Position numbers and translations under genes: made by a program. The notes below the pieces were generated by a model that was not told where the DNA came from, ran no database searches, and saw nothing but the letters and a program-made list of their open reading frames with translations. Of a stretch of DNA of 61,075 nt, positions 3,789-43,200 are shown piece after piece. The stretch's first letter is position 1, and each line of letters starts with the position of its first letter. The stretch comes from a virus: the IMG/VR virus record IMGVR_UViG_3300010354_000093, positions 1 to 61,075 of that record. One strand, given 5' to 3'.

Positions 3789-4360
3789 TGAAAATTATAG
3801 ACAAAAACGATTATATCGAAAGATACGATTTCAGTAAATTAATTACCGAAGAAGATAATAAAGAAATTATGCGTATTAGCAAAGAGCTAATTGACGCAGG
3901 ATTATACTTTACTAATAGTCCTAAATATCAAACCAAGGCTAATTTATTTGCCAGGCCTGAACCCGTGTTTCTTAAAATGAGGCAAAGTTTTATCTATAGT
4001 TGCTTTATGTTTTTAGGCAAAGAAGTTAAAATCAAAGGAATAAACAGTTGGGTGTTTATGACAAAACACGGTGACGAAATTGATAGACAACAGCTATGGC
4101 ATCATCATCACTACGATAAAGAATTTGGTAAAGTAAGTGGAATATGGTATGTAAACATTCCCGAAGATGCAGGGGATTACAATCATTCCGGAACTGAATT
4201 TGCATTAGATGGAGTTGATGGTACTGATAAAGTACTTGTGCGACCATCTGAGTCTACTTGGATTGTTTATCCAAGTAAATTATGGCACCGGCCGGCGTTG
4301 ACGTACAATAAAGAAAATTACAGATTTGTATTTGCGGCCGACTTGGAGTATTTACTATGA
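3788..4360 (+). CDS. putative 2-oxoglutarate/Fe(II)-dependent oxygenase
   Basis: A 190-residue protein with the facial triad of the 2OG-Fe(II) superfamily: H108-Y-D110 within WHHHHYDKE, distal H167 in LWHRP, and R179 twelve residues later, the usual 2OG-carboxylate partner. The strand SGIWYVNIPED following the first ligands is typical of the prolyl-hydroxylase-like group (related to 2OG-FeII_Oxy_5). Such enzymes hydroxylate peptides or small molecules. The gene overlaps its neighbours on both sides (1 and 4 bases) and sits between two flavin halogenase homologues, which suggests action on the same substrate. The HxD ligand is an aspartate, so the non-haem iron halogenase variant (HxG/A) is not indicated. 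Substrate unknown. Confidence 0.82.
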   Translation: MKIIDKNDYIERYDFSKLITEEDNKEIMRISKELIDAGLYFTNSPKYQTKANLFARPEPVFLKMRQSFIYSCFMFLGKEVKIKGINSWVFMTKHGDEIDRQQLWHHHHYDKEFGKVSGIWYVNIPEDAGDYNHSGTEFALDGVDGTDKVLVRPSESTWIVYPSKLWHRPALTYNKENYRFVFAADLEYLL

Positions 4361-5547
4361 AGCTTGCAGTTCTTGGTGTTGGGACTGCTGGACTCACATC
4401 ATTATCACATTGCCTTGCTCATTTAAATGATGAGTGGACTATATACTCTATAAGCGATCCTGCAACACCTATTTTAGGGATTGGCGAAAGTACTACTCCA
4501 TTAATTCCCGGGCAGTTGTACAACGGTGCAAGATTTACTTTATTAGAAGATTCTAACGAGTTAGATGCAACTGTAAAATATGGTGTCAAGTATGTTGGTT
4601 GGCGCGAAAAAGATTTTTTTAGTCATATACTTCCGCCAAACCATGCAATACATTTTAATAATTTTAAACTTAAAGAATTTTGTTTTAAAAGGTTTGCGGA
4701 TCGTTGGAAAGATAAATTTAAGATTATATACGGAAAAATTAATTATTTAGAGAATCAGAAATCTTGGGCTACTGTATCTGTAGAAGATCAAGTTTATAAT
4801 TTTGACTATGTTATTGACTGTAGAGGATATCCAGAAAACTATACCGACTACAACGTATTAGAGTCTATTCCAGTAAATCATTGTCTTGTACACACAGTAA
4901 ACGAACCAGGTGAGTGGACCTGGACATATCACAAAGCCCATAGAAACGGATGGATGTTTGGCATTCCTTTAAAATCTAGGCAAGGATGGGGTTATTTGTA
5001 TAACGACAAAATAACTCCCCGAGAAGATGCTGTTGCAGATATTGCAGAGAGGTTAGGTGTTAACTCTAAAGAGCTAGCTTTAAGAGAATTTTCTTTTAAA
5101 ACATACTATGCAAAAAAGTTCATGGAAGGGCGTGTTATTAAAAATGGTAATCGCGCACTATTCTTTGAACCAATGGAGGCGCTGTCAGGATCATTCTATG
5201 GAACATTAATGAGATCGTTCATCAGTTTTATAGCAGGCGACATTGATGAAGACTATTTCAATACTAGCTTAACACATACTGCACAGGATTTTGAAAATTT
5301 TATCTGTTTTATGTATCACGGCGGTTCAAATTACGAATCGAAGTTCTGGGAAATAACCAAAAATAGATGCCGGGCTCATTTACACAACAACGAGCGATTC
5401 AACTATTTTATCGATTTAATAAGAACACTTAAACCTCACGAATTTGAACACAAAATGTGGACTCCATTTTTGTCAACCAATTGGATTGACTTTGATCGAG
5501 ATTTAGGATATAATTACTTTAATCCTAACTCTAAAGAACGACCATGA
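4357..5547 (+). CDS. second flavin-dependent halogenase-like protein, diverged
   Basis: A 396-residue member of the same FAD superfamily as the 1611-3047 product but only distantly similar and about 80 residues shorter. It keeps the Rossmann motif GVGTAG (7-12), GIGESTTP (41-48), the lysine K74 in TVKYGVKYVGW, DCRGY, and the Glu of EPMEALSG (E274). The diagnostic WxWxIP motif reads WMFGIP (W199-M-F201-G-I-P), so the second Trp is Phe. It may be an active halogenase with altered specificity, a flavin monooxygenase, or a partner of the first enzyme. It overlaps the oxygenase by 4 bases and the RNase H gene by 4. Confidence 0.82.
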   Translation: MKLAVLGVGTAGLTSLSHCLAHLNDEWTIYSISDPATPILGIGESTTPLIPGQLYNGARFTLLEDSNELDATVKYGVKYVGWREKDFFSHILPPNHAIHFNNFKLKEFCFKRFADRWKDKFKIIYGKINYLENQKSWATVSVEDQVYNFDYVIDCRGYPENYTDYNVLESIPVNHCLVHTVNEPGEWTWTYHKAHRNGWMFGIPLKSRQGWGYLYNDKITPREDAVADIAERLGVNSKELALREFSFKTYYAKKFMEGRVIKNGNRALFFEPMEALSGSFYGTLMRSFISFIAGDIDEDYFNTSLTHTAQDFENFICFMYHGGSNYESKFWEITKNRCRAHLHNNERFNYFIDLIRTLKPHEFEHKMWTPFLSTNWIDFDRDLGYNYFNPNSKERP

Positions 5548-18593: not shown

Positions 18594-20069
18594 TTATAAA
18601 ATTACTGCTTCGATAAGTTTAACACCAACGTCATCACTCGATTCTAAAGCTACTGCAAAAACTTCACTACTATGATGTACAGCCTGTACTGCACAACCAT
18701 TGCTCGAAGCTATTAGACATTTTCCTTTTGCAATTGCACCAATGACCTTTACTGGTACACGGCCTTTTAGTGCAATATAGGTGCCGCCTTCTAACTCACT
18801 ATTCATCATATAAGCAGGGTTAGCACTTACAACACCGATTGCGCGATGGCCAAAAGTACTTGCAGTTACTTCTTTTTCGCCGCCAACTATCATAACTGTA
18901 CCAACTTCATAGTCCTTATCGGCAAGATATTTTTCTGCTAAGTCAGCATATTGTGCAGATGTAGCAACGCCTCTAAATGTTGTTGCATATAAGTCGCCTA
19001 CTGCATCTCTAGCAGCAATTGTTACATTACCAGCAGAAATTGAAGTAGTTGCAACTCTGGCAGTACCGGCAACAGTCAACGTATCGGCTTGACTTGCAAT
19101 ACCTTCAAACTGATTAGCATAGACTGTAGAATAACGATATGTTAAAGATCCAATATTAGAATTACCATCTGTATCAGGAAGGATGTCATTCCCAATAAGT
19201 TTTAATGGAATTTTTGTAACAGACGCCACTGTTGTTTGGAAAATCATAGTATTTGTATTGGACTGAAATACCGGATTGCCGCCTGGATTGATCGAGACTT
19301 GTAATTTTTTAGTTGCAAGGCCTACAGTATATCCAGGATCTCCAAATTCAACTTGCGTGTTAAATGTTGCACTAGTTGCTTGAACAAACGATGAGGCAGG
19401 AAACCCGCCTAACAAATCGGCGTTCGTTGCAGTTCCATAAAACTTAATTGGGGGTGTTGTCTGGCCAGGTGCTGCTGGATTGTTTGTATTTCTTAATGTA
19501 ATACCTGGATGAACATCCGTAAATCCGTCAATTGCGTTAACTGTATCTTTTAACGTAAAAGTTGTTGTTTCCGTACTAACAATAAACGAAACGACTCCGT
19601 TAACTGTGGCACAAATAATCGCATGGGATCCGCCTAGTGTGTCAATAACTAGTCGGCTAACCATCTCAGTTTGCTGGGTTCCTGCGGATTGAGGGCCTAT
19701 AAGTGTGAAACTAGTTCCGTTGTAAGCATACAGTTGTTTGTTATCTGTATCCCACCAAAAATCACCAAGAGTTAAGCCAGACGGCTCTGTTGCACCAACC
19801 TCAGCGCCGCCAGTAGTTCTAAAATAAACACCATCAAAAAACTTTAATTTTTTATTAGATGTATCGTACCAAATTTGTCCGCTAATTGGCTTGGACGGAG
19901 GTGAGCTGTAAGCAAAATTTTCAAGTAATTTTACAAAATTTTCATTTTGTATTTCGCCGTAACCTGCGTAATTTTTACCAATTAATTTAATGTCAAGGGT
20001 GCTATCAATAGTGCCATCAGCTACTACAGCTACTTGATCTCCACTTGTTTTATTAATAGTATATGGCAT
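18594..20069 (-). CDS. tail fibre protein, paralogue 3, with C-terminal chaperone/protease-like domain
   Basis: A 491-residue fibre. Residues 1-90 form a module shared with the next two genes (LIGKNYAGYGE, NENFVKLLENFA, GQIWYDTSNKKLKFFDG). The middle is a Ser/Thr/Asn-rich beta shaft. The C-terminal 130 residues (QYADLAEKYLADKDYEVGTV, RAIGVVSANPAYMM, ALKGRVPVKVIG) look like the autoproteolytic intramolecular chaperone domain (peptidase G2 type) found at fibre tips; this is a similarity by eye. A late promoter AATAAATA precedes its start by about 22 bases. Confidence 0.78.
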   Translation of the reverse strand: MPYTINKTSGDQVAVVADGTIDSTLDIKLIGKNYAGYGEIQNENFVKLLENFAYSSPPSKPISGQIWYDTSNKKLKFFDGVYFRTTGGAEVGATEPSGLTLGDFWWDTDNKQLYAYNGTSFTLIGPQSAGTQQTEMVSRLVIDTLGGSHAIICATVNGVVSFIVSTETTTFTLKDTVNAIDGFTDVHPGITLRNTNNPAAPGQTTPPIKFYGTATNADLLGGFPASSFVQATSATFNTQVEFGDPGYTVGLATKKLQVSINPGGNPVFQSNTNTMIFQTTVASVTKIPLKLIGNDILPDTDGNSNIGSLTYRYSTVYANQFEGIASQADTLTVAGTARVATTSISAGNVTIAARDAVGDLYATTFRGVATSAQYADLAEKYLADKDYEVGTVMIVGGEKEVTASTFGHRAIGVVSANPAYMMNSELEGGTYIALKGRVPVKVIGAIAKGKCLIASSNGCAVQAVHHSSEVFAVALESSDDVGVKLIEAVIL

Positions 20070-24575: not shown

Positions 24576-26081
24576 TTAGACCCTAGTTACAGTTAGCGGA
24601 TTTGATCCGCTAAACGGCCATCTTAAATATCGATTAGCGGCACCTTGTAAACTTAGTGTGTCAGTATATGTTGTTGTACCAGAATCGCTCATTCTTCCCT
24701 GGGTGGCTGTAGTTGTAACCCAATTAATACAATCATAAGCATCGTAATCTCGTCGACTTTCAAGCAAACAAGCTAGAACTCCAGCAACTTGGGGTGAGGC
24801 CATGCTTGTGCCTTGTATTTTTTTAATATAAAATGTAGGATCATCAGGATGAGATACTGAACCTGACCCTAAGGTAGCTGTTAATGGCATTGCAGACTGA
24901 ACAGCTTCACCTGGAGCAAAAACTGTTATGCCTGGGCCGCAACAACTAAAGTTACTCTTATATTCAGTATTAGCAGCTCTTATTGCACCAACAGTAATAA
25001 CTCCGTTTGGGCCATTAGGAGTAGACCCCCTGTGATAGTATCTGTTCGCGCCACCTGATGTAAAATAATTATTATAATCTAATCCCCCAGAAACATCTAT
25101 TTTATGTGTATCATTTCCGGCGGCTGCGACTAAAATAATACCAGCTGAAATACAACTATCTATATCTGCATCGACACTAGCTACTCGAACTGGGTGAGTG
25201 TAAGCATTATATGTAGAACTAAAGTTATAAGAAGTTTGCACCATGCCATACTGGCTCTGAGCAGTTGTGCCAGTCCACGATGTTCCCCTATAATTGCCAC
25301 CAGTAATACCTGAATACAAATTAAAATACCCCCAACTCATATTAACAACTGTAGGATTTTTGTTTGTTTTTAATAAATGCCAGTTTCGAATCATATTGAA
25401 CGCGGCACTAGTACCAAATGCATCGGTATCAAATATTTTTATAGCATATATGTTGGATTCTTTTGCCCATCCGTAACGCCGACCTGCTACTGTGCCGGCG
25501 CAATGGGTTCCGTGTCCGTAAGTATCGGTATAGTGTTGGGCACCTTGAGTATATGTTCCCGATAAACCAGATGCGACGGGCCAGTTAATTTGATTAAGTC
25601 TGTCTGTTATACCATCTTGCGCCTTCCACTCCGGGTGACCGACCTGTATACCCGAGTCCATAATTACCGAGTCAACATTTTTTCCTGTAGCAACATACGG
25701 ATGTTGATATGTTAATGTTGTTCCAGAGAACGGATTAGAGTTATTAATACATGCAGGTATTGCCCAAGCGTAATCACTATTGCTCTGAGTAGTCGATCTA
25801 GAATATGTTCTGCTTGAATCTAATGTATGATGCTTGAGGAAAATACCGTTTTCTTGTTTAGACCCGTAACGAACATCAGTTATGCGAGGGTCATTTTTCA
25901 AAAATTCAACTTCTTTCTGTGTTAAAACAACATCAAAGTTTCTTTCGCTTTCATTTTTTTCATTCCACATTTCAACCTTGCGGCCTAATGCTTTTCCAGA
26001 AACAATATCATCCATTAAAGCATCTACGTCGACACCTTTTTCTGCTGTTACAACACAACGATTTTGATCTTCAGTAGTCAT
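24576..26081 (-). CDS. subtilisin-like serine protease (S8), virion-associated candidate 2
   Basis: The ATG at 26081 starts two bases after the upstream fibre stop; earlier starts would run back through that gene. The 501-residue protein has an N-terminal inhibitor-I9-like propeptide (about 1-80, FDVVLTQKEVEFLKNDPRI) and a full S8 catalytic domain: D142 in VIMDSGIQVGHPEW, H190 in YGHGTHCAG, oxyanion-type AAAGND, and S426 in GTSMASPQ. No signal peptide is visible, so it is not an ordinary exported protease; position among fibre genes suggests incorporation in the virion. It may mature fibres or cut host surface proteins. Confidence 0.88.
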   Translation of the reverse strand: MTTEDQNRCVVTAEKGVDVDALMDDIVSGKALGRKVEMWNEKNESERNFDVVLTQKEVEFLKNDPRITDVRYGSKQENGIFLKHHTLDSSRTYSRSTTQSNSDYAWAIPACINNSNPFSGTTLTYQHPYVATGKNVDSVIMDSGIQVGHPEWKAQDGITDRLNQINWPVASGLSGTYTQGAQHYTDTYGHGTHCAGTVAGRRYGWAKESNIYAIKIFDTDAFGTSAAFNMIRNWHLLKTNKNPTVVNMSWGYFNLYSGITGGNYRGTSWTGTTAQSQYGMVQTSYNFSSTYNAYTHPVRVASVDADIDSCISAGIILVAAAGNDTHKIDVSGGLDYNNYFTSGGANRYYHRGSTPNGPNGVITVGAIRAANTEYKSNFSCCGPGITVFAPGEAVQSAMPLTATLGSGSVSHPDDPTFYIKKIQGTSMASPQVAGVLACLLESRRDYDAYDCINWVTTTATQGRMSDSGTTTYTDTLSLQGAANRYLRWPFSGSNPLTVTRV

Positions 26082-26082
26082 A

Positions 26083-27279
26083 TTAATATAAAGCGTTCCA
26101 ACTTGTTCCGTTATAAAATACAGGATAAGCTCCGCCAGTTCCCTTTGAAGCAGGATCCCAATTAGTTCTGTCTGCAACAGCAAATACACCGGCGCTTATT
26201 CCAGTAGGAGCAGCTGACAATGGAGATAACCTTAAAAATTTACTTGCTTCAACTGCTCCTTGAACTACCATCGATCCAGTCGAACTACCTGTTGCAAATA
26301 CAAAATCACTAGCAGAAGTGTATGTAGGAACCCCAGTACCAGAACTGGTCAAAGTTGTTGCTGTTACTGTGCCCCCTACTGTTAAATTTGTGCCGTCAAA
26401 CGTTAAATTTGCACTACCAGCAAATGCTCCGTTATTATTAAATTGAACTTGAGTATTAGATCCCCCTGGATTTGTTGATCCGCCACCGCCACCGCCTGCT
26501 GCCGAAATAGTTATAGTATCTGTAGTAGCATTTGTAGTGATAGTAATATTAGCGCCTGCAACAAATGTTAAAGTATCTATACTACTGTCTGCAACAATGT
26601 TACTTTGTCCAGCTACAGCAATAGTGTTAAAAGAGTTTACTGTTCCAGTAGCAGCAATTGTTACAGAATCTGTATTAGCATCAGTGGTTAAAGAAATACC
26701 AGAACCGGCAACTAAAGTTAAAATATCTTCCGGAACGTCTGCAATAGCATCTGCCTGGCCAGTAATACGAATTGTCCCAAAAGAGCTTGGTAATGCCGGA
26801 GATCCTTGATCAGCAGCAGTTATAGTAATCGAGTCTGTTGCAGCATTTGTAGTAATGGTGATATTATTGCCTGCTACTAAAGTTAACACATCGGTAGGGC
26901 TATTTGCAAGAACACTACTTTGTCCTGATACTGCTATTGTTGAAAATGAGTTTGATGGAGGGCTTCCGCCGGCGCCAATGTCGTCTTCGCCGTTATACCA
27001 AGCTGTTCCATTATATTTTAACACTTGTCCAGATAGCGGAGTATTGATTACAACATCGGTGAGTCCGTCTAAATTCGATGCGCCACTTCCTCCTCCACCG
27101 CCGTTTGCTAAAACCCAGGCACGAGTAGCTAGTATCGATCCTCCAATTAAAGACCCGTTGTATACTCTTAAGGTATTACTACTAGAGTCCCAAAAAACTT
27201 CCCCTGGTTCATAGGCAAACTTGTTTAAAGTTTGCGTGCCTTGCGATTTTAATCTAACTGAGCGTAACGGTGTTGTCAT
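26083..27279 (-). CDS. tail fibre-like protein with threefold internal repeat
   Basis: A 398-residue fibre-type protein. The N-terminus (LNKFAYEPGEVFWDSSSNTLRVYNG) is an attachment module, followed by a Gly-rich hinge. Three copies of about 45 residues follow (F-x-TI-x-V-x-GQS ... D-x-LTLVAG-x-x-I-x-ITTNA-x-TDSITI-x-A), then a second Gly-rich hinge and a beta-rich tip with SKFLRLSPLSAAPTGIS. It lies between the two subtilase genes, forming a fibre/subtilase/fibre/subtilase order. Confidence 0.75.
   Translation of the reverse strand: MTTPLRSVRLKSQGTQTLNKFAYEPGEVFWDSSSNTLRVYNGSLIGGSILATRAWVLANGGGGGSGASNLDGLTDVVINTPLSGQVLKYNGTAWYNGEDDIGAGGSPPSNSFSTIAVSGQSSVLANSPTDVLTLVAGNNITITTNAATDSITITAADQGSPALPSSFGTIRITGQADAIADVPEDILTLVAGSGISLTTDANTDSVTIAATGTVNSFNTIAVAGQSNIVADSSIDTLTFVAGANITITTNATTDTITISAAGGGGGGSTNPGGSNTQVQFNNNGAFAGSANLTFDGTNLTVGGTVTATTLTSSGTGVPTYTSASDFVFATGSSTGSMVVQGAVEASKFLRLSPLSAAPTGISAGVFAVADRTNWDPASKGTGGAYPVFYNGTSWNALY
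26500..26950 (-). repeat. three tandem coding repeats in the fibre gene
   Basis: About 135-150 bases each, encoding the GQS ... LVAG ... ITTNA ... SITI module. The copies have diverged at DNA level, so they are old; low-complexity shaft repeats rather than a mobile or CRISPR array. Confidence 0.72.
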
Positions 27280-27293
27280 ATTTCAATCTCGTT

Positions 27294-29981
27294 TTAATTT
27301 ACTAAAATATCTATATTAGGAGCCGGATATATTCCTAATCTTACATTCATAGTCAGTGCAAATGTTGTTGTCATGGTTATTGGTAACGACCCAGCATTAT
27401 TATTAACTGTAATTGTACCTGTTAACGGCACATTTAATGATGTTCTACTAAACGGATACACAGATCCGCCCGGACTTTGAAATGCCCATCTTGCATTTAC
27501 TCCTGTGTGTACATCGATCTGGTTACTAGTATTTTCATAAAATACTGCTTCGTACACCATGTTAGGATTTCCTAATGTGCCGGAGACAGAATTAGTTCCT
27601 TCCCATCTAATTCTAAAAGTTCTATTTGGTGCTACGCCTTCCTCACCGTAATATATTCGTTGACAACTATTATCATTTGCAGAAATCATTATCTTTGGAA
27701 TAGCAGGGTTAGAACTACTTAATTGAGAATAGTTCGATGAACCAGCACCAAATGTAATGTAAGTGTTTGTTCCTACATAAATTGTGTTGTATGTTTGATT
27801 TAAAAAACTAATGCTAAAAGGAAGTGGAACTGTCCAATACCCGTCATCAGAATTTCCTGTGAATGTTAAGCCAGCCGGGGCAGATGGCGTCGACGACAAC
27901 AAACTTGCTGGGCCAATAATCGAATTTGTAATACTAATTCTCGAGCCGGCAGTTGGAGTAGTAGTTGTAATCCTATTTCCAGTATTTGGGCGTGTGTCAA
28001 AGCTATCGGTATTAGTAACTCTTGTGTCAGTTGTATAGATTCCACTAAAACCAGATTCAACTAACACTGGAGATCCGCCTGCTCTAGGTTTAGCAGTAAT
28101 AATATAAGGAACAACTGTACCATTTGGTATATTTGCTGTTGATAAGTTTACTGTAACGGTCCCATTATTAATGACTGAACTTACATCAGAAGTTAAATTA
28201 AACGTTGCTTGATTATTATAGCTGTAGAGTGTTCTTTTTCGAGGAACAATTTGGCCAGACACTGGCCTATGTGCCGCAGTTATTTCTGGAAATGGAACTG
28301 TATGATAACCTCCTACATCAAGCGTTGGTACTCGTGTTCCGACTAATAGTAATACTTGTTTATTACTTGCTGGATTAAATGTTAATCCAGCATCTTTACT
28401 ATCCTGGGCGCCACCGTTTGAACTTTGTAAAGTTGGTGGACACATTGCTTTTAAATACTCTCGAGCTTCTTTTTGAGTCATTCTAGGATATTTTTCAGCT
28501 AAACATGCAAGAACACCAGTGGTTTGTGGACCACTCATGCTAGTACCTGGACATTTTTTAAAATTGTTATTAATTGTGTCTGTTCCAGCAAGTGATTCTA
28601 TTCTTGAATCCGGAGCTGCTATAGAGTCATATAATGTAGTGCCGGTACTCCATATACTTTGTATACCTGAACCTGGTGCCCAGCAATCAATTCGTGGGCC
28701 ATAGTTACTAAATTCTGCTTTAAAGTCTCCAGATTCAATACCAGTCGAACTATAAATGCTTGCTCCAGAAGTTTCATTGTGTTGCCCCATGGCGCCTGAA
28801 CAAATAATTTTAGTTTCTTCTGTGCCACCATCTGCGGCACCAGGACTACTGCCACGATGGATGTAATAAGTTGTGTTGTTGTAAATCATTGTGTTGTCGT
28901 AATCTAAGCCGCCAACTACATCTTCGTAAAAATAACTATTTCCAGCACTAGCAACAATGATAATTCCTTCTGCCATAGCATCGATCATATCGATATCAGT
29001 TCCAGTATCTCGAGTTGGAAACGCTCCGCCGATATTTAATCTAGCAATATTTTGCAGAACATTAGAGTCCCATACATAAGATCCGTTTGAGCCGCTAGTT
29101 GGAAAATAATCAACACCTCTTATAGTTAACTTTGAAATGGAAGCAGAGTTTAATGAGCCTCCCCTATAACCCCAACTGTTATTCATCACTGTAGGATTCT
29201 TAACACCAGTTAACGGATTAATTGGTTTGTTTTTATGGAACTCCCTGACATAATCGATACTATCATAAAATGTAATATTATAGATATTTGCATCTCTGGC
29301 CCAACCCTGAGTATTGCCTGCGGTTGTTCCTGATGTGTGTGCGCCATGTTGTTGCAATCGTTCGCCTGGATAGTCGTAATACCCTATTGCGCCGCCTGTA
29401 ACAACAGGATTATGAATAAACCAATTATACTCAACCATTCTGCTGTAACCGGTTCCGTTGGCATTTTGTGCATACTCATAGGTAGTTGGATACGGTGCAC
29501 CGTCATCCATAATAACAACATCAACATTTTTTCCTGAACAGTCAACCAACAATGAAGCTGCTTGTTGTACCGTACCGTCGATCCCCCAATTTGTAATATT
29601 AGATTTTTTTAAACATCTAACAAATCCCCAATTTATATCGCCTGCATCGCTTGCAACACGTTTATCAAAATTTGACGAAGTTTGATTGAAACCAAAAGTT
29701 CCTCTAATTAAACCTAAATCTCTATAATTTAATTCTACTGTTAATACACGAGGATCTTTTTTAATAAGAGCCGCCTCATCATAACTTAACATATAATGTG
29801 TGTTACGGCTGATAGGTCTTCTGTTGACGCATTCAACCATCCTGTCAGGAATATAAAGATTCCCTCCTGGATTTTCCATATCTTTATAAAAATCGTCAGC
29901 ATCGTCCATACTCTTAAGAGTTACAATATACTCTTTAAGGCTTTGATCTTCCGGATTACCTAAGTGTGGAATTGGATCCAT
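27294..29981 (-). CDS. large subtilisin-like protease with C-terminal beta domains, virion-associated candidate 1
   Basis: An 895-residue S8-family protein. An N-terminal propeptide-like domain (about 14-90, EYIVTLKSMDDADDFY) precedes the catalytic domain: D159 in VVIMDDGAP, H212 in QQHGAHTSGTTAG, IVASAGNSYF, and S481 in GTSMSGPQ. Residues about 550-895 are beta-sandwich type; one part (PFSISFLNQTYNTIYVGTNTY ending short of an IRWEG...YEAVFYENTS block) resembles nidogen-like domains of adhesins. It is about twice the length of its neighbour and lacks a signal peptide. Placed directly after a repeat fibre in the late transcript, it may be a particle-borne protease. Confidence 0.87.
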   Translation of the reverse strand: MDPIPHLGNPEDQSLKEYIVTLKSMDDADDFYKDMENPGGNLYIPDRMVECVNRRPISRNTHYMLSYDEAALIKKDPRVLTVELNYRDLGLIRGTFGFNQTSSNFDKRVASDAGDINWGFVRCLKKSNITNWGIDGTVQQAASLLVDCSGKNVDVVIMDDGAPYPTTYEYAQNANGTGYSRMVEYNWFIHNPVVTGGAIGYYDYPGERLQQHGAHTSGTTAGNTQGWARDANIYNITFYDSIDYVREFHKNKPINPLTGVKNPTVMNNSWGYRGGSLNSASISKLTIRGVDYFPTSGSNGSYVWDSNVLQNIARLNIGGAFPTRDTGTDIDMIDAMAEGIIIVASAGNSYFYEDVVGGLDYDNTMIYNNTTYYIHRGSSPGAADGGTEETKIICSGAMGQHNETSGASIYSSTGIESGDFKAEFSNYGPRIDCWAPGSGIQSIWSTGTTLYDSIAAPDSRIESLAGTDTINNNFKKCPGTSMSGPQTTGVLACLAEKYPRMTQKEAREYLKAMCPPTLQSSNGGAQDSKDAGLTFNPASNKQVLLLVGTRVPTLDVGGYHTVPFPEITAAHRPVSGQIVPRKRTLYSYNNQATFNLTSDVSSVINNGTVTVNLSTANIPNGTVVPYIITAKPRAGGSPVLVESGFSGIYTTDTRVTNTDSFDTRPNTGNRITTTTPTAGSRISITNSIIGPASLLSSTPSAPAGLTFTGNSDDGYWTVPLPFSISFLNQTYNTIYVGTNTYITFGAGSSNYSQLSSSNPAIPKIMISANDNSCQRIYYGEEGVAPNRTFRIRWEGTNSVSGTLGNPNMVYEAVFYENTSNQIDVHTGVNARWAFQSPGGSVYPFSRTSLNVPLTGTITVNNNAGSLPITMTTTFALTMNVRLGIYPAPNIDILVN

Positions 29982-29982
29982 G

Positions 29983-31251
29983 TTATACCTCTAATTGCAA
30001 CAATGTTAATGTAACAGTAATTGTTGTTGACGACCCGCTTTTATTAGTAACTGCAACCGGAATGCTAGTTGTCGGAGTTCCTTCGTTGTTAAATCCTAAA
30101 ACAGCTGGAGTAACCACTACTGTTTGACTTCCGGTTGTAATAAATTCTGCTAGAACACCGCTTCCAGGAGCAGGATCTGTTAAAATATCTCTACTAGCGT
30201 CTGATGTCCTTGACGCAACATCGCTATATAATCTTACCCAAGCCGCTGCACTTGTTTGAATTTTTAATACCATATAGGATTTAAATCCGGTAATAGTTAT
30301 ATTACCTGTTGCATTATTTGCAATACTTGAAGTAGTTGCCGAAGCCGTTGTTCTACTGTAGGCTCCACCGGTACCTGCGACAGCAGCAAAAGAAAATTGT
30401 CCTGCACCATTAGTTGTTAAGAATGTTCCAGGTAATCCGTCAGCAATACCTAAATTTAATATGCTAGTTGGAATAGTTGGTTTACCAGTTAAATCTTGAT
30501 ATAATCCCGAGACTGCTACAATAGAAAAAGCCGGTCTATTTTGTATTGCAGACCATTCAACAACACCAACACCAGTTGAACTAATTACTCCGTTTGCGTC
30601 AATAGTAATAGACGCTCCGTCAACTTTAATTCCGCCTAGTGTTCCGCCGCTGCCAGTACCTGCGGTTGGCAGGGTATATTGTGTTGGAATAGTAGGTTTG
30701 TTTGTTAAATCAGTATAGCTTCCACTAGTTGCCACAGTTGCAAACGTTGGTTTTCCTGAGATATTTGCCCAAGCTAGCGAAGTTAAAGTAATATACCCAG
30801 AGCCATTAATAAGCTGATTCGTGTTGTTAGGTATTGTTGGTTTGTTTGTTAAATCATTATAGCTACCGCTAAAAAGTACAGGCTTGTTTGTTAAATCATT
30901 ATAATTGCCGCTAAAAAATGTAGGCTTGTTACTTAAATCGTCGTAGCTACCGCTTGTTGCTACCAAGGATAAAGAAGGTGTGTTATCTAAATCAAAATAG
31001 CTGCCTGAAGCGGCTACATCTGACAATGTGGGTTTATTCGTTAAATCAGTATAGCTTCCACTAAACAAAACTGGTTTGTTCAATATTTCAGCAAGTCCAG
31101 ATGTGGCATTCCAATCAGCATTGACTTGACCAGTTTCCATAAACTGATATAACTCTGTGAAATTATCATTTATTTTTTGAGCACCAGATCTTAACGTATC
31201 GCCTGATCCGTCATTTGCTGTAACTCCTGCATTAATTACTTGTTGCGACAT
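29983..31251 (-). CDS. tail fibre-like protein with GSYxDLTNKP repeats
   Basis: I take the ATG at 31251 (AAGGA eight bases upstream, MSQQVINAGVTANDGSG) rather than a TTG six codons earlier inside the giant gene. The 422-residue protein starts with a fibre/baseplate-attachment motif (INAGVTANDGSGDTLRSGAQKINDNF) common at phage fibre N-termini. Seven copies of a SGSYxDLxNKP element follow, then a beta-rich tip. These repeats make a thin triple-stranded shaft. Placed between the giant protein and the first subtilase. Confidence 0.78.
   Translation of the reverse strand: MSQQVINAGVTANDGSGDTLRSGAQKINDNFTELYQFMETGQVNADWNATSGLAEILNKPVLFSGSYTDLTNKPTLSDVAASGSYFDLDNTPSLSLVATSGSYDDLSNKPTFFSGNYNDLTNKPVLFSGSYNDLTNKPTIPNNTNQLINGSGYITLTSLAWANISGKPTFATVATSGSYTDLTNKPTIPTQYTLPTAGTGSGGTLGGIKVDGASITIDANGVISSTGVGVVEWSAIQNRPAFSIVAVSGLYQDLTGKPTIPTSILNLGIADGLPGTFLTTNGAGQFSFAAVAGTGGAYSRTTASATTSSIANNATGNITITGFKSYMVLKIQTSAAAWVRLYSDVASRTSDASRDILTDPAPGSGVLAEFITTGSQTVVVTPAVLGFNNEGTPTTSIPVAVTNKSGSSTTITVTLTLLQLEV
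30460..31090 (-). repeat. SGSYxDLTNKP shaft repeats
   Basis: Seven irregularly spaced copies, visible on the plus strand as TTGTTTGTTAAATC followed by AGCTACC or AGCTTCC blocks. Coding repeat of a fibre shaft; the near-identical DNA copies make recombination-driven length change likely. Confidence 0.78.
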
Positions 31252-31255
31252 TTTT

Positions 31256-34200
31256 TTATCCTTGGTCAAATGTTATGTCATTGCTATCGAACGAGCCGGC
31301 ACTTGAGTCAAACGTTGAAACAGACTCAGCACTTTGATATTTATTGCTCTCTTGATACCAAATTCCCGGAACAGCTTTTAAGAAAGTTGCTACGCTATTG
31401 TTATCATATAATAAGTTTACTGTTGAATCCCAAATTATACCTTTCTTTCTAACTACAGTTATGTTAATACCGTAATCTAAAGGTGTTTTCAATGTAAGCA
31501 CATTAGTATTTCCATCAACTGTGAATTCAGCATCAAAGTCAATATCTCCTTCAGGACTATCTGGTGCTTGATTAACATTGTAAACTGTATAGTCCGACTT
31601 ACGTAATCTTAAATTACCTATAAAAAATTCCCAATTGGCAGAATCATTTATAAAATTATCTGTACTTGTATGATTAGTCACGCATCTATATGTGTAACTT
31701 CCAACAGTTACAATATTTCCTATAGAATAAGCTACACCTGAAGTCCAATTAGCACCAACATTGTACCCCCCAACAAAAACTTCGATAGAATCTTTTGCAA
31801 GAGTGATAGCATCTTCTGCTGTCATCGAGCTACCCTGATATGTATAAGATGTATCAAAGTTGCCAGGAACAAAGTTTAAATTAACAGTATTAGTACCATC
31901 AGAAATTAATTTTTGTATAATTTGTTCGTTAACATAAGGTATTGTTTCCGAAGGACCAATATCTTGAACAAAACTGTTAACTGGATGAACGTTAGGAGTA
32001 CCTGTTCCTAATGTTCCACGACGTAGTTGACTTAATACATTTCCATTTTTTTGGAAATACTCAATTCGTTCTCCGCGAATTTCGACAATACCTGGCTTGT
32101 TTGCAGACGGGTTAGGAGCGTCGAAATTTGATGCATCTTCAACTTCTATCGAAACATCATTGTACTTTAAAGGTGCTGTTAATTTTGTTTGCTTATACAA
32201 ACTTAATCTCTTGAAATGATCCCTATTCAACATATCCTTAAATTGCATATAAGCTATGCCTGGAGATAGTACATTACTTCCAAAAGTTATAACATTAACT
32301 TCTTGATTTAAAGGAACATAGTCAGTTAGTTTAACTGTAATTTTATCTTCTTTAACTACATAGTCAACGCTAGGAACAAGAAGTTTACCAGCCTGGATTA
32401 CCCACACATAATTCTCATCAATTACAGGATTTCTTAGAGTAATATAACCACCAGTTACACCAACATAACTATAATATTCAGTTGTATCAGGTGTTACAGA
32501 AACAGAAGCATCAACTGTTAAAACTGTTCTTTCAATATCTAAAATATCGTGTTTATAAGAGCTTATAATTTCTACAGTATCCAAATTTGAGTATGCCTGA
32601 GCAAAAGTTATCTGTGCTGGCGTTGCTCCTTGTGGAGGAGTATAAACATACTCGGCATTCTGCAATACATTAACAATTAATTTCTTTCCTTTATACTGAG
32701 CAGCAATACTAGGAGTTATTTTTATATTGATAACGCTTAAATCAATAATATAATCGTTACCTAATGTCAATAGTGTTCCGTCAGCATAAATTTTTAAATC
32801 TGTAATATCAATGCTATAAGGCGGCAATGTTACCGGATCTAAAGAATAGTTATACTTGTTTGCTTTAATCGTGAAGTATTGATTTGTTGGTCCTGTTAAG
32901 AAAGTTTGATTTGCCCTAACAAGAATGTTTGATTCAATTGGTAACGAATCGCCTATTATATTAGACAAGTTATAAGTTAATGAACCATTTGTAGCAACTT
33001 TTTCTGTTTTAGTAACTGCAAATGTTTGTTGATTACCTGCAACGATAGAATAAGTTATTATGCTTCCAGACAGCGGTGCTGCACCGAAACGAATACCTAC
33101 TCTATTTGGACTATCATACGTTTCGTCTGTTTTAAAGATTTGCCCGTTACAAGGTTCTCCATTTAAATATATCAAATAGGACATCTGGTCAAGCCACGGA
33201 GCTTTAGTAATAAATTCCTCTGTTGTACCATTGCCAATAAAATAATCAATATCTAAAATGTTCCCGCCGTTGAATCCAAAACTGTAAACAGAAACAATGC
33301 TCTTAGCAGCAGGTGCCGTTACAAAAGTGATCAAATTATTTTCATAATCAAATGTGTAATCAACTTCACTAGTTTTAACACTATGGACAGAATTTGATAT
33401 TACTTTAACTATAATAGCCTGTTTAGTATTAGGCCTTTGAGATAAAATAAACTCCTCAGTAACACCATTGGCAACAAAATTATCGACCCTCATTGTAGCA
33501 CTTGCTGAATAAGGTTTATCAAATACTTTAATTGAAACTGTGTCAAACAACTGACCCGGTACAACTTCTTCTGGGGCAGGGCTAGTAGTTGGAGTCACAA
33601 AGCCGTCGCCGTCAACAATAATATCTTCTGGTAACAGGCCCGTTGCGGTAGAATATGCAAAATTTCCGCCACTAAGAGCTGTATCATAATCTGATTCTTC
33701 TGGTTTTATAGATCCGTCACTTGTGTTCTTTCTAATAATAATTTGGTCGCCGTCGTTAATTGTATATGTCAACGGTATTGCAATGTCGTAAGCCGGTATT
33801 GTTGGATCAGAACTTATACCAGTCGACACAATAGTTTCCATTATTGCATTAGTGTTTGTTTGGCCTGGGGTATTGTAGTCAGGATCATCTAACCTTACAG
33901 GCTCTAACAACGAGTATACTTCAACCCAAGACTGATCTGGAGCAGGAACTGTAAGTACTGCTATATCAAATCCAGTTAAAGCAAAATCAACATTTTTAAC
34001 TAAATTACGAGTAAAGGTTAATGAGCTTGCCGGATCTATTGATCCGTATAAAATTTGATTTAACCTAACTTGTGTACTGCTAATGATTTGAGTAACTGAG
34101 GTGTTCAGCCCAAGTACACCATTAACTGTTGTTGTTACTATATCACCAATTGCAAGACCTGTTGTACTAGCTACAGTTAGAATATCAACACCTGGTTTAT

Positions 34201-37200
34201 TCAAAGTAAATTTTAATGCTGTTCCATTTGCTGGAGGTAGACTTGGGGCGGCACTTAGAATCAAAGTTGTTGAGTTGGAAACTGTGACAACTGTTTGTGT
34301 TGTAAACTCTGTGCCAACTACTAGCATGCCCGGAACGATTCCGGTAGTATTGGAAACCTTTAATGTTGTACCAAAACTTCCTGCCGATACATAATTTGCT
34401 ACTACTCCTCCAGAATTAACATATCTTTTTATTCTGACTTTTGGAGACACCATATTGGTATTATATGGATACTCGAGGTTAATGCCGTCTGATTGTAAGT
34501 CATTTATTTCTAGTTTTATATGATAAACATTAATTTCTGTTCCGGCAGGAGGAACATAATTCAGCGTCCACTCGTGATCACCTGAACCAGTAGTTACAAT
34601 AAAATCATCAAATGTTGGATCTGCACTATCCCATCTTTCGGTAAAGTACGGCACATTATCCCAACCTTGGCCAACATCAAAATCTAAGCCGTCTAGTACA
34701 ACGCCACCGTAATCTATCCCTGACATTAACTGAGATAAATCTTTACCAATTTGACCCGATGTTGGATTATAGTAAAACTGTACTCTGTCAGCTGCATTCA
34801 ATAATGACCAATCTTTTGTATAGGTTACAATAATAGTTGCGTTTCTAGCAGGTGCTTTTTCAAATATAATCGAACCGCTATAACTTGTGTAACCTTTTGA
34901 TACAGATTTAATAATAACAAGTTTATAATTATCTCGTAATTCTTCAACTCCATTTACTGTAACTGTTGATTTATTAACCCTTACATCAGGTCCCCATTTT
35001 AACGGAAATTGTAATCTACTGCCTGTACCGCTAAATGTTTCTGTTTCTTCTAATTGTGTAATAAAATAACTTTGTGTTATACGATCAAACTTCATTCGAA
35101 TAGTTTGAGATCTTGTCACGCCGCCGCCGATAATAGCCACAGCAGTTGCTTGCGTTCCGCCCTGTTCTACTCCGCCTTCTAACACCACTTGCGGTGCTGA
35201 CAAATAACCACTTCCAGAATCAAGTAAAACAATTCTATTCACTTTTCCATTAGCAATAAATGCCCTAGCAGTTGCTCCAGACCCAGAGCTACTAATAAAT
35301 CTTACTACCGGAGGAGAATAATATAATGCTCCGTTATCAACTATCTGAATAGAAACAACTTTGTAACTTGCATTATCTAACCAGTTTTTCCAAGGATAAT
35401 TATCAATAACAGTTGATGTACTGGTAATTTGATTATTTTGAACTGATGCATTTACAACAGAAACTTTTCCGTTTTGGTAGGCTGGTTGTAAGTCAAAGTC
35501 AGTTACTAGTAATTGAGCAGGATCTACTTTATTATAGGTGCTAATATATTCTCTTATCTTAGTTCTATAAGGCTTAACCTCAGAAACATACGATTCAAAG
35601 TCCGATAAATTATCGTTCTTATAATTTACTGGCTGATGTAATTCTCCTACGTTATGATTTGCTTTAACAAAACTTGTTTTAAAAATCCAATCAACATAAG
35701 TTTGTTCATTTAAAACATAACGAACTGTATTAAAGAAAGATCCAAGATATGCATATTCTAATGTGTCAATAAGAATATTGTTCTTTAGCGCAGTGAGTAT
35801 GTTCCTTAATTCTGTTGTTGCAGAATTGTCAAACGTTGCATTGTCATATAACGCCCCATCAAATCCATAATCTGTATTTTGGAAAAGATATAAACTAGAA
35901 CTTAATTGTATTGTTCCATTTTCTTGACCAACTACTTTATAAATCTGTGTCCAGTCGATACTTTCAACATCGGAATATTTTTCTAATAAGAACCAAGTTC
36001 CACTACTGCTTGTTCTAACTTTTACAGTTTGTCCTATTGCTGGATAGATGGAATTTAAATCTGAAAATGTGTCTACTGCAAAATTTATTGCAGTATAATC
36101 ACTATATCCAGTTGCATACCAGTCAACGTAATCCCAGTATTTTCTTGTGTCAAATGACTGACTACGAATTCTTGACCATACTTTGTTTACAGAATCATAG
36201 GAGTATATGCTCCAAGTTCCAGTAGCGGAAGTATCAGTATGTACAAGTGCTGCGTAACTTCTTACTGAAAAGACTGTATTTGTGTCGTAACCGTATCCTG
36301 GAGAGATAATTTTAATACCAGTTATTTGTCCTTTAGCATTAATCAGTGCTTTAATCGAAGCCCCAAATCCTGAACCAACAACATCAATAACCGGTGCTAT
36401 AACATACCCGCGGCCGGCGTCAACAACTGATGCACCGACTATTGATCCATTTTCGATTATTGGAACTAATGTTGGTAGCACAAAAGATCCAACGTTGGCA
36501 AAACGTAGTTCTAAGTCTGTATCTAATACAACATCATACAATCCTGTATTAACACTAGGTTCTTTTTCATATGACTCTAATAAACTAAAATCTCTCTGGC
36601 CAACTACTTGGGTAGTTATTAACACTCTGTTAACATACTCGATGTATTGTTTTAGAGCCTCGAGACGATTAATAAACATACCTTGTCTAGGTCTGTTTTC
36701 AATTCCATATAATAGTTTTGGTGGAAGTGCAGGATCAGGTACTACTCTACCTTGCTCGTCTTTTCCACAAAGACTGTCTATCCATTTCTGTTCAATAATT
36801 TTAGGAATTACTGTATCACTATTAGTGCTTACTAATCTCCACTGGCTATGAATATTTTTATTAGGAGGATCACTTACCCAATATTCAACAGACAATACAA
36901 CATCTCGATCTGCTAATAAATTACCAACATTAACTAGACTAAATGAATTTGAACTAGTAAGTGCTAGATATTTGTATGCCTGGCCCCTAGGATTTCCTAT
37001 TAAACTAGAAACATCTTGAGCAGATATATATCTACCAACAACATTTGGAGTTGTTTTCTTATTCTTGACCCAGTAATAATACGTGTACTTGTAAGACTTA
37101 GCAACCGAGTCCCAACGTTTTGAATAGCTGTATGTGTTATTTCCGTACAATGTCTGGCCGCTTATACCCGAGGCAAGTCCTTCTTCGGTGTCGGCCTTAG

Positions 37201-40200
37201 CGTTCCAATCTGCTGGTTTATATTTTGATTCGACCCATTCGTAGATATCTACGGTAGATCCTGGGAATAATGTATTCCACGTACTGTTTCGATAAACAGT
37301 TTCATTATCATTGCTATCAATAAACTTTGTTGTTCGTAGATCCCACCATAATGTTCCAACTTGCGAGCTACCCCATGCAAGGCCATCATCAATTTTTACA
37401 GAACTGTTGGGTGTTTCAGATATTGGAGTTGCATATATTGCCGGATCAAAATATGTTTTATAACGTATTTCTTGATCAGAAATTCCTGGAATTTTTCCTT
37501 GACTAGAATCTATTACATCTAAGTATGTAATAAATTTATTTGTACGCTTGTTATATAAAAAGACTGATTTAATCTTAGATAGATCAACTTTGTCAATTTC
37601 ATAATGATTCAATGTCCAACTGTAGTGACCTTGTTTTTTAATATAAGAATAAAGTTTTCCAGAAGTTTTACCGTTGACAACTGCATATGGGGCTCCAACT
37701 AATACATAATTGCCGCCAACCGTAATTGATGTTCCGTATCCTTCTAATATATCAGTGTCTGTTGCTAAACTTTCTCCAAATATCCACTTTTTGTTGTACC
37801 TATCAAAGATATCAATTCTGCCACTATCAACATTCTTTTCAAGATAAAATGTTGTTAAGGAGTCGTCAAATGTTGTGCCGTCATTTATATCCCAGCCAAC
37901 TCGACTATCTGCACTTGCACTATAAATTACAAGTGTTTTATCATTATTCATGAAAAATATCTTACTTCCAAACATTTCTCCTTGTTCAGAATTTAAAGAA
38001 GTTATTGTTTGACCAAGACTATTATCTAAAATATAGTTGCCAGCTTGATTCCGTTCGTAGACAACTACTTTGCCCTGATCTACTTTATCACCATCGTATA
38101 CAGTTGACGATATTGCAATATATGTTGCAGAGTCAGTAATAGCTATACTTTGACCAAATCTAGTGTCTGTTCCAGAAATTGTCTGTGCTAAAGTATACAC
38201 TCCAGAATTGTTCTGTTTATAAACATACACTGACCCGTTTCCACCAGAAGTAATAGCAGGAGCTGATACTACTAGTGTCGAGCTGTCTTTACTTACGACT
38301 ACCGAGTCACCAAACTGATTTCCGATAGCACCTGCTGTAAATCCAGTAAGGTTATCATAAGCCCACGATGTTAAGACAAAATTTAGTCTTCCAAATGGGT
38401 CGCCATCTGGCGGCGCACTTAGAACCAATGTGGTCGAGTTCACAACTGTTATAACTTGTTGGCCTTGTGTAAATCCAGTTCCAACTACAGTCATTCCTTC
38501 TTTTACACCGTCTGTTGTAGATACTTTAATTGTTGCGCCTGTACTGCCAACAGGATTATATAACGCACTAGTTTGAACACGTGAATCATAAATTAATTTG
38601 TAAACTTTACTAGAATTATCAGCAGTAGAAACAAATAATGTATTATCACCAAATGCAACCTTGTACCCAAATAGTTCATTGATGCTTTGTACAGGACTTA
38701 CAAAAGTTGTAAGATGAGAATATAGTCCTATGCTGTTCTTGAAATAAACTGAAACTGCACCTTGCTGTAAAGGCCCTGTATTAGTTGCACCGTTAACTGT
38801 TTCAATTAAATTATTTTCACTCCAGTAAGTCGGCGATGTAGCAGGCGGATGAGATCCCGAAAAACTTACAATTGCTTCATAAATTTTTGTACCATCTGTT
38901 ACTAAATCTCCAACTACATACGAACTAGCAGGGTTATACGTTCCTTTAAACTTGGTTGCAGCAAGTCCGGCGCGAGGATGTCCTACTGCTAACCAATATC
39001 CGTCAGGAGAAAATGCTGCTGATTCTGCAAACCACGAATCTTGATTTGGATTAACACCTAGTATATCATTTGCTACAACAGGGCGTAAAAATATTTGAAC
39101 TTTTGTCCAAGGTACTCCCGGAACTGGTTTAGAATAAATTGAAGGTTGGCCCGACGTGTCTGAAACAAACGCTACATTGCCGTCTAAATTCATTACGACT
39201 AGTCTGCCAAATAAGGCATCATCTTCTAATGGATTTGGCGGTATAGTATCTCCTGCAAATACAGGATTATATTTCCAAGTTCCCCATTTTCCGTCGCCTT
39301 TATCTTTAGTCCATAACAATTCGCCATTGACTCTATTATTCGATAGAACCGAGTCAACTAAATCAATAGACTCGGATAGTTGAGGCTTAAGAGCAAATAC
39401 AGGAACAGTTGTTCCAGCCTGGAATGGTGTCCATCCAGCAATAGTTGTATTAATTATAATTTTTTCTACAGATACTGAAGAGATTTTATAAAATCCCTTA
39501 AACCCAACAGTCTCGATGCCAATATATGAGTCTGGTTCCAGGGTAACCACAGAGTCTGTCTCTAGTGTAAGAACAGAATTACTATAAGTAGCATTAACAA
39601 TCTTGATATCAGTAGGTGTATATCTATAGACATTCCAACTTATACCTTCAAATCCTACCCATACATAAGACCCATTGTTATATTCATCGATATTTTCAAG
39701 TAATATCTTATCTAGAGATGTTAAAACAGTTTTAACTTCGTCTTGTCTAACAAACCCTGCTGAACGTAGATAATTCTTTTGTGATGTTTTTAAAGGCCAT
39801 GGATTACTATTGTAACCAAGCGGTTTTAAATATATGTCACTTTCAATTTGTCTTACAATAAAATCATTTAAATTTCTATCAACTGTTTTTACTAATTCAA
39901 ATCCTTGAGGATTATTTTTAAACAGAGATTCGTCAAGTAGAAATTCAATGTTTTCAAAGGCGGCATTGGCACCGTATTGTCCAACACGTACTGCCCATTC
40001 TTCGTAAAAGTCTAAGTTTTCTTTTCCGCTGGCACCGAAGACGTCGAATAATTTATCTAAGGAATTAACTGAACCTTTGTCTGCAATCATTCCCTGATAA
40101 AATTTAAATTCGCTAACATCGTCTTGAATAATGTTACTTAAATACTGTCTTTTTTGGTAACCAATTAGATGCTGTGCTACTTTTTGCTGACCAGAATCAA

Positions 40201-43200
40201 AATTATCACTATCAAGGCTGTAAAAATCAGTAAACTGTTCTGCTTTATAAGTCCAGTTTGGAAGTAATTGCGGAGTTGGTTTTTCTGATAACTTAATCCA
40301 GCTAGTTGGATTAAAATCAAGTGTGCCTTTTAGAGACGATGCAGCACTATAATAAAATTCTTTATATTTGGCAATGTCACCTAAGTTATAATCTGTCCAT
40401 GGTGTCCAGTCATTAATTGTCGCTTCGTCGTAAATAAAACCAGGAACATTAAACCCGCCGTTCCACTCAGAGCTTACATACCCAGAAACTTTAATTCTTT
40501 CTTGTCGATAACCACTTTCAAGATTATAAATTGTATCACCAAACATTGTTTGGTTGTTTAGTAAAACAATTTGCTCTTTTTGTACAAGATAAAAAACTGC
40601 TCCATAAATTCCGTCTTCGCTGCTTGGAGAATATGTCACAGCATTATCTTCTCGATAAGTTGAAAGGAATGAATCAACGATAGGCGACCCGTCAACTTTG
40701 TATATTTCATATCCGTTAAACTGACTTCTTATATCTTCTACTACACAATAAGGAGTTGAGAAAGTTAAAGATGTTGCAGACGGGCTAAGACTTATTACAC
40801 TACTACCAACTGTGCTTAAACCATCTAATTTAACAAAATCTTCTTCGTTAAAAATTGAAGATGCAAAAACCTTATACTTTGCTTGATAATAATCGCCGTT
40901 GTATTTTACAATCTCTTGATATTCAATATCTTGATCATCGCTCCAGTCTTTCCACTTATCTTGTCCTGAATTCCAATTTTGTGTTGTCCAGAATAAAAAC
41001 TCTTTTGCACTAGTTTGCCAGTTAGTTATAGTTCTTAAATTATTATTAAAGTCATCAAAAATAAAACCCTGATCTTTTAACCATTCACCATAGCCAACTA
41101 TAAAGTCATATGTGTCTTGAATTGTATCAAATTTAGTTCCGTACGGAACAATAATAGATTCTGTCCTATCCCATCGAATTCGTGTTGTTGCTTCTTTACC
41201 ACCTACAACTGGCAAAGAACCTAATGCTTGATAAAAATCTGAATTGAATTCCCCTTCGGCAGTATGATTTACCTTGACTCGATAAAATCTATTCTGATAA
41301 TTAACAACTTTGCCTGCAACATATGTCGATCCGGCTGTCCAAAAAGTGTAGCCTTCCGAAATTCCCCCAACATTAATGGTTGGGCCAGATTGTGTATAAG
41401 GATAATAGTAAAAATACGGTTGAGTTTTACTATATCCCTTAACTTCGTATCCGGTAGGCAATTTTGTAATTATTATACCGCTATAGACAATCTTTTTAAT
41501 TGGGCTGGAAGTATTTAAAATTATATTATAATCTTCTTGAGGTATAAAAACTCCTCCAGAGCTTAAAGGATTTTTACTATCTAAAATAAAATTAAATTTT
41601 TCTTTGCTAGTAAATCCGCCAAGACGTAAACTAATTTGTGCAGAAATATTTTTTAAATCGTATGTATACTGATCATAGGATCTTAGATAATCGCTTAAGA
41701 TATAATCAACAACATAGTTAATTAAACCAGATGTGTATACTCTTTTAGGACTTGAATAGATACTAGGGAGTACTAAATCACTTGGCGTAATTCTTAATTC
41801 TGTTTCTGTATATATTAACTGCCCAGCAATGTTTCTCTTAATTCTCGAACGATCGAGTAATGTTCCAAAAGACATCGCAGGATTTATTAAAATAGCAGTA
41901 ATTATAAAACTAAACGGATAATGACTACTTCTCCGCCAAGCGGCTTCTACTGGACTAACATCTCCGAATACAAAATCGCCGACAGTTGCTCTTGAAATTG
42001 TGCCTTCGACAATCTCTGTAGTATACGGACTTCTTAATTGGCCATACTGATCTACTGGTATATGATCTAGCAAGTAAGGTCTGACATATTGTTCAAGAAC
42101 TAATGATGGAGCATTTGGATCTCTTACCAAACCGGCCGCGAGATCTTCCCATAACACTAAATTATCGCTTGTATACGGCGCTGGGCCATATACAGTTTCC
42201 CACCATTCTGGTTGTAGAGTAAACCCTAACATTTCCCACGGGCATAGGTGGGGGCGGTCTGTACCTAGCATCCAACGGTATATGCCTCTCCAGTACCCTG
42301 GAACATTTCTTCCATCTAACGATACATAGTCGCCATAGTTCCAAGTAAAAGAATTGTCTTCGTCAAAGCTCAAGGGTTTTGAAAAATCTCTATTAACAAA
42401 CGATGTCCATTTAAAAAATTGAGGTGCAAAAATTTTATTAAATTCGTCTAACCCAATGCTTGAATTTTGATTATAAGCTGGCTCAATTTCTGTTACATCA
42501 AATAACTCTGGATTATATTTTATTTTAATATTATTAAAAATTCTTTTTTCTAATTCTAAAATAAGCTCGTCTCGATAATCTCCGTAAGCTAATACTTGAC
42601 TTCCGTCGTGGCCTTGTATCATTAGCCTTGGAGTTACTAAACTAGTATCTAGATAAATTTTAGGCTCGTAGGCTGGCCAAATACCTAACTTAGTAGGAGT
42701 AGACGGTATAAAACAACCATCAGTACTATCATACTCGTATATTGATATTTCATCATCGTTGGCCATTTCAGCCTTAATAACAATAAAACGTTGTTCGCTG
42801 TCAAAAGTATAATCTTTTCCGTAAATTAAATGGTTGCCATTTAAATAAACATATACTGCTTTATTTGATAAGGACTCTAGGTCAAACGAAGTTGACACAG
42901 GGTAAGTCTTTATCCTGTAATCAATTACCGGATATGTATTAACTACAGAAGCTGTGTAGCCGACCATGTCACTAAAATAGTAAGGGCCAGTTTTTGCTTT
43001 ATCTTTATTGATATGATTTAAAATTGCATTGACGTGCCCAACATAATCTGTGAGATTAGGATAATCTAACACCTCAATTACATTAATAAAATTGCGTTTA
43101 AATATTCCGTAGTCATCTCGAGATTTTTCAATACCTCGAATAATATTACTTGACTGGCTTGTAATGTGATATAAACTTAAACTTAACGGGCCTGCGTGTT

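Follow-up and report, generated by a model that had tools for sequence, protein, structure and literature searches.

The stretch analysed here is a 61-kb fragment from IMG/VR (virus record IMGVR_UViG_3300010354_000093, positions 1 to 61,075), referred to below as the window. Its minus strand carries four consecutive genes, fib1, sub1, fib2 and sub2, in which phage fibres alternate with subtilisin-like proteases (Table 1). Coordinates and strand bear out this order, which a first-pass annotation had read from the sequence. Sub1 stands directly behind a fibre with a conserved C-terminal domain, CTD-A, and CTD-A predicts the type of the next gene across a large set of viral loci, where S8 or S53 proteases with a short common tail motif predominate. 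At the DNA level, a comparison of the region with known phages gave no match.

Table 1. Features of the fibre and subtilase array, in window coordinates.
Feature	Positions	Strand	Description
fib1	29983..31269	minus	fibre gene; T4 gp9/10-type N-terminus, PF07880 4.8e-07
CTD-A of fib1	29986..30369	minus	conserved C-terminal domain; predicted jelly roll, pLDDT (predicted local distance difference test) ~97
spacer fib1/sub1	29982..29982	minus	single base, TAA-C-ATG
sub1	27294..29981	minus	S8 subtilase, 895 aa; clade A; PF00082 2.2e-17
sub1 probable I9-type propeptide	29691..29981	minus	residues ~1-97, predicted topology
sub1 catalytic domain	28326..29690	minus	residues ~98-552; triad D159/H212/S481, oxyanion N348
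sub1 tail motif	28239..28268	minus	RPVSGQIVPR, residues 572-581; sole match in the window
sub1 C-terminal extension	27297..28214	minus	residues ~590-895, low-confidence model
fib2	26083..27279	minus	fibre gene, 398 aa; phrog_677 2.2e-11
spacer fib2/sub2	26082..26082	minus	single base, TAA-T-ATG
sub2	24576..26081	minus	S8 subtilase; clade C; PF00082 1.6e-30

Two intact subtilases behind two fibres

Both pairs share a TAA-N-ATG junction, with the protease starting one base past the fibre stop. The listed open reading frame (ORF) of sub2 begins at a GTG at 26189 and would run into fib2 with an overlap of 107 bases, so we numbered the protein from the ATG at 26081, a start that also reproduces the residue numbers of the earlier annotation. 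The length of fib1 is 428 aa when counted from a TTG, with a probable ATG at 31251, and its C-terminus differs from that of fib2, which reads YNGTSWNALY. As to the late transcript to which both proteases had been assigned, strand and neighbouring genes agree with it, but the T4 late-promoter octamer TATAAATA does not occur on the minus strand of the window.

Both proteases match the profile of PHROG 9158 (6.9e-79 and 2.5e-66), and alignment reproduced exactly the numbering of the complete D-H-S triads proposed earlier, which in sub2 are D142/H190/S426 with N323 as the oxyanion asparagine. Of 24 aligned sequences, 23 retain both the triad and the oxyanion Asn, the sole departure being a D-to-E change in phage S-CAM1. 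The structural model of sub1 superposes on proteinase K-type enzymes (5wsl, Z 33.7, 2.2 Å, 268 residues), and the fold of sub2 was assigned from a sequence match to aqualysin I (6.8e-15). Both genes code for intact S8 subtilases that are predicted to be active. Residues 712-831 of sub1, within the extension that follows the catalytic domain, are found alone in S-SRM01 and other phages.

The absence of a signal peptide, also noted previously, agrees with the lack of an N-terminal hydrophobic stretch. The propeptide-like N-termini claimed for both proteins fared less evenly. In the model of sub1, residues 16-84 adopt a beta-alpha-beta-beta-alpha-beta topology, and the Inhibitor_I9 profile matches sub1 (0.11) and its S-CREM1 counterpart (0.0078) below the Pfam cut-off; because these matches stay sub-threshold, an I9-type propeptide in sub1 is likely, short of proven. 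The same profile does not match sub2, whose N-terminus is propeptide-like by alignment to sub1 only.

CTD-A and the gene behind it

In the fibre alignment, the columns without variation fall almost entirely within CTD-A. The domain has no close solved relative among PDB folds, with matches below Z 8 that fit a generic jelly roll; one such match, to the beta domain at the C-terminus of Tk-SP subtilisin (Z 6.7), is not used as evidence here. In a 75-row tree of the subtilases, all 58 CTD-A-linked members form one group, clade A (support of 99 in the Shimodaira-Hasegawa-like approximate likelihood ratio test), and each lies behind a CTD-A fibre. Subtilases of clade B follow fibres with another end domain (CTD-B), and those of clade C follow mixed fibre ends. 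Within clade A, the distance from fibre stop to protease start is most commonly 1 base (31/58), and it is 1 or -1 in 42/58. The near relatives of the window all have a fib1-type fibre upstream of their sub1-type subtilase. Sub1, with a CTD-A fibre immediately upstream, belongs to this module; sub2 lies outside it, as fib2 lacks CTD-A and sub2 lacks the tail motif described below.

Sampling from the fibre side gave the same association, as a subtilase follows 61 of the 63 fibres closest to fib1 that have a readable next gene. When protease-seeded and fibre-seeded loci were pooled, we obtained 195 distinct CTD-A fibres, whose next gene codes for an S8 protease in 147 cases, an S53 protease in 19 and another protein in 29, which places a protease behind CTD-A in 166/195. 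Sequence similarity links 28 of the 29 other partners into one non-protease family (the third family), and the remaining one is a 202-residue ORF located 57 bases downstream of its fibre. In phage S-BM3 (L045), a 2650-aa protein annotated as peptidase S8, with S8 matches, is found upstream of the CTD-A fibre, and the gene behind that fibre belongs to the third family.

The S53 partners were recognized at locus L188, an exception to the subtilase rule, where the protein matches Pro-kuma_activ (7.9e-11) and ends in FRPTSGQAYPRPYTGVR. A scan seeded with this protease returned 19 loci, all 19 with a CTD-A fibre immediately upstream. A Pro-kumamolisin domain is present in four further members. Across the S53 alignment, from which the truncated L373 row was excluded, the E-x3-D, D and S residues do not vary. 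These kumamolisin-type S53 proteases (L188, L362-L380) had no match in 50,697 GenBank phage records.

The other shared element is a short motif, RPxxGxxYPR in its idealized form, located after the catalytic domain. We searched for it with the expression R[PRG]xxGxx[YFWVLICM]P[RK], which was written after the sequences had been seen, so the counts describe an association and not a pre-planned test. The tail is present in 93/131 uncut S8 proteases adjacent to CTD-A, mostly no more than ten residues before the C-terminus, and in 14/18 S53 proteases, where 5 to 8 residues separate it from the C-terminus. The same expression gave no match in 17 other S8 proteases or in the 29 remaining partners, third family included, and matched 5 of 1221 background ORFs; three of these five are small genes right behind the third family. 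In the operons of that family, an overlapping small gene bears the tail in 21 of the 27 with enough sequence, an arrangement also seen in the cultured phages S-H9-1, Sf-CH1b and S-SCSM1. The most independent support for the tail comes from the S53 loci, as the search that retrieved them was seeded with the protease, independently of the tail. A divergent subtilase of S-CAM1 (L044, 5323-7578), annotated as "putative proximal tail fiber protein", also lies behind a CTD-A fibre; its catalytic Asp position reads Glu, and its tail is RRPVEGATYPR.

A proposed virion mount for proteases and the alternatives to it

The reading that we favour, with a probability of roughly 0.5, sees sub1 as a protease of the virion that CTD-A and the tail hold on fib1 and that acts on a protein of the host surface. 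Sub1 would be synthesised as a zymogen, with an I9-like propeptide and a proteinase K-type catalytic domain, from the same operon as fib1. CTD-A of fib1 would then hold it, at least partly through the conserved tail, and the enzyme would travel in the virion and cut a host surface protein during adsorption. From the sequence evidence we infer the contact with the fibre, the presence in this virion, the activity and the surface substrate. CTD-A and tail together may form a modular mount that receives, depending on the virus, an S8 protease, an S53 protease, or a non-protease accompanied by a small tail-bearing protein. Sub2, a second protease from another clade that is paired with a different fibre without the mount, may serve another fibre or another step. 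In its general form, the proposal that tailed viruses share such a plug-in mount and recruit S8 and S53 proteases through it to attack host surface proteins from the virion is tentative, and we rate its chances as slightly short of even. The linkage suggests that fibres bearing proteases are found on many tailed viruses, and such proteases would probably cut proteins on the host surface.

The virions of phage S-SCSM1 are relevant here. According to the published study, 45 phage proteins were detected in them by mass spectrometry, ORF213 and ORF214 being named among these (PMC9602691), and the notes "(virion protein)" in the sequence record agree for both. The same record note is attached to SSCSM1_228 (a fusion of a subtilase with a structural part), SSCSM1_231 (a CTD-A fibre) and SSCSM1_235 (a tail-bearing protein). 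The particle-bound proteases imagined in the first-pass annotation are plausible in view of this annotation and of the conserved fibre domain and tail. In S-SCSM1 (L043, 29577-33812), the part fused to the subtilase domain is C-terminal and matches structural or gp7-annotated cyanophage proteins.

Several observations weigh against a protease mount. SSCSM1_228 belongs to clade B, not clade A, and its virion status is at the level of annotation, taken from the record notes. The tail of sub1 is internal, with about 310 residues following it, and the strict motif is absent in 38/131 CTD-A-linked S8 proteases (24/131 with a looser expression). The linkage of CTD-A and protease may partly reflect shared descent, since clade A forms a single lineage and loci from metagenomes are not independent of one another. 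Last, the second pair is left unexplained by a mount, because sub2 has neither a CTD-A fibre nor the tail.

The first alternative is that each protease is a maturase that clips its own fibre during assembly, for instance at the boundary between shaft and C-terminal domain, the latter being an assembly domain. The tight one-to-one gene order and junctions would fit such a role, as would the way in which the fibre C-terminal type tracks the protease clade, and tail spikes with cleaved chaperone domains do exist (cited inside PMC7824862). However, CTD-A does not need a protease, as 29/195 CTD-A fibres occur without one behind them, and the swap to S53 with the tail kept points to mounting over one fixed cleavage site. 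The annotation of the related S-SCSM1 subtilase as a virion component speaks in the same direction, and we consider the maturase unlikely.

By analogy with what has been proposed for the chaperones of Alteromonas phages or observed for gp25 of Pam3, the protease could also be a transient cap or chaperone of the fibre that uses proteolysis for its release. Chaperones and caps are known to be encoded in the position immediately after a fibre gene (PMC10579305; PMC9608196), and the probable propeptide would fit an activation that is timed. Catalytic residues are not required for capping alone, yet the family has retained them; S53 proteases are not known as chaperones, and the annotation-level virion evidence from S-SCSM1 also stands against a passing role, which makes this possibility rather improbable. 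Both the maturase and the cap fit the gene order, and both explain less well the protease-free CTD-A fibres and the tail kept across families. Proteases that act within infected cells, on proteins of the host or the phage, and whose position by the fibre genes only reflects shared expression would agree with the lack of a signal peptide-like N-terminus. Such a role agrees poorly with a link to a single fibre domain that holds over many contigs, and with a tail specific to CTD-A operons, and it appears very improbable.

That a unit of fibre and protease was recently duplicated in tandem, a duplication having been proposed at first from the alternating order, is hardly credible even though both proteases belong to PHROG 9158 and both pairs have the same one-base junction: the approximately unbiased (AU) test rejects a sister relation of sub1 and sub2 (p 0.003). 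The subtilase phylogeny, a check that had been called for, places the two proteins, which are 31% identical, in clades A and C, respectively. Viruses with a clade C subtilase mostly carry it alone, and fib1 and fib2 show a weak repeat-like similarity without a common C-terminal domain.

Distribution, host context and related systems

Searches with tblastn matched 43 and 49 phage records, nearly all of them cyanophages and at one place per record, where the subtilase is commonly located directly behind a fibre or tail-pin gene. Scanning of viral contigs gave at least 565 confirmed relatives among the 600 stretches listed, and a scan of bacterial genomes gave 11, mostly on contigs binned into metagenome-assembled genomes. 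Two subtilases together are less common (the window, L041, L042, L067 and L109), always as one clade A and one clade C member. An S8 peptidase had already been reported in P-HM1 and P-HM2 (Sullivan et al. 2010; PMC3037559), and single fibre-adjacent subtilases are common in T4-like cyanophages, so the expectation that they would be unusual for T4-like phages does not hold. In the openly available literature that we searched, no study of a virion subtilase or of a phage kumamolisin was found.

The wedge protein of the window is closest to those of large phages, for example Phosso, Atu_ph07 and Paride. Unlike the subtilase-bearing cyanomyoviruses, neither the window nor its 270-kb relative has a photosystem gene (psbA included), which lends no support to a cyanobacterial host without speaking against one. 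Directly upstream of fib1 lies one structural gene (31256-45610) coding for 4784 aa, of which residues ~169-284 are seen again within the L030 subtilase and in further proteins of fibre regions. A fibre-like protein at 18594-20069 has a sub-threshold match (0.008) to Peptidase_G2, an intramolecular chaperone. Two tryptophan-halogenase-like genes (PHROG 2928; 1599-3047 and 4357-5547) share their end of the window with a QueE-like radical S-adenosylmethionine gene, a weak 2-oxoglutarate-Fe(II) oxygenase match and Thy1.

If the mount is real, many aquatic viruses would be equipped with proteases that serve attachment or entry. A large group of fibre neighbours that now lack annotation would gain a function open to testing, and a short docking tag would become available for direct experiments. 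The best-known enzymes on phage fibres cut glycans, and the mount would be the protein-cutting counterpart of glycan depolymerase spikes.

Among known enzymes, the proteinase K/subtilisin group (MEROPS S8A) has triad, oxyanion Asn and fold in common with the sub1 family; unlike it, the phage enzymes start without a signal peptide-like segment, are encoded in a viral fibre operon and carry a C-terminal tail. The viral S53 partners share the Pro-kumamolisin domain and the conserved catalytic positions with the kumamolisin/sedolisin group (MEROPS S53), and differ from it in their place behind CTD-A fibres and in the RPxxGxxYPR tail; they are found in related viruses, whereas the window has none. 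The closest arrangement is seen in the cyanomyoviruses S-CREM1, S-H38, Sf-FR1, S-WAM2 and P-SSM2, with the same protein family in the same place behind a fibre, and sub1-type cyanomyovirus subtilases also have CTD-A and the tail in common with the window. Each of these five codes for one subtilase, whereas the window has two from different clades. In T-even phages, the gene directly behind fibre gene 37 encodes gp38, an adhesin bound to the fibre tip. The proposed mount of sub1 would resemble this in that the fibre-adjacent gene encodes the partner, although the partner here is a protease and the likeness considered is one of gene arrangement. Host-recognition modules in which the partner is likewise encoded next to the fibre are known from the Alteromonas phages V22 and A5 and from gp24/gp25 of Pam3 (PMC10579305; PMC9608196), where the partners are described as chaperones and not as proteases.

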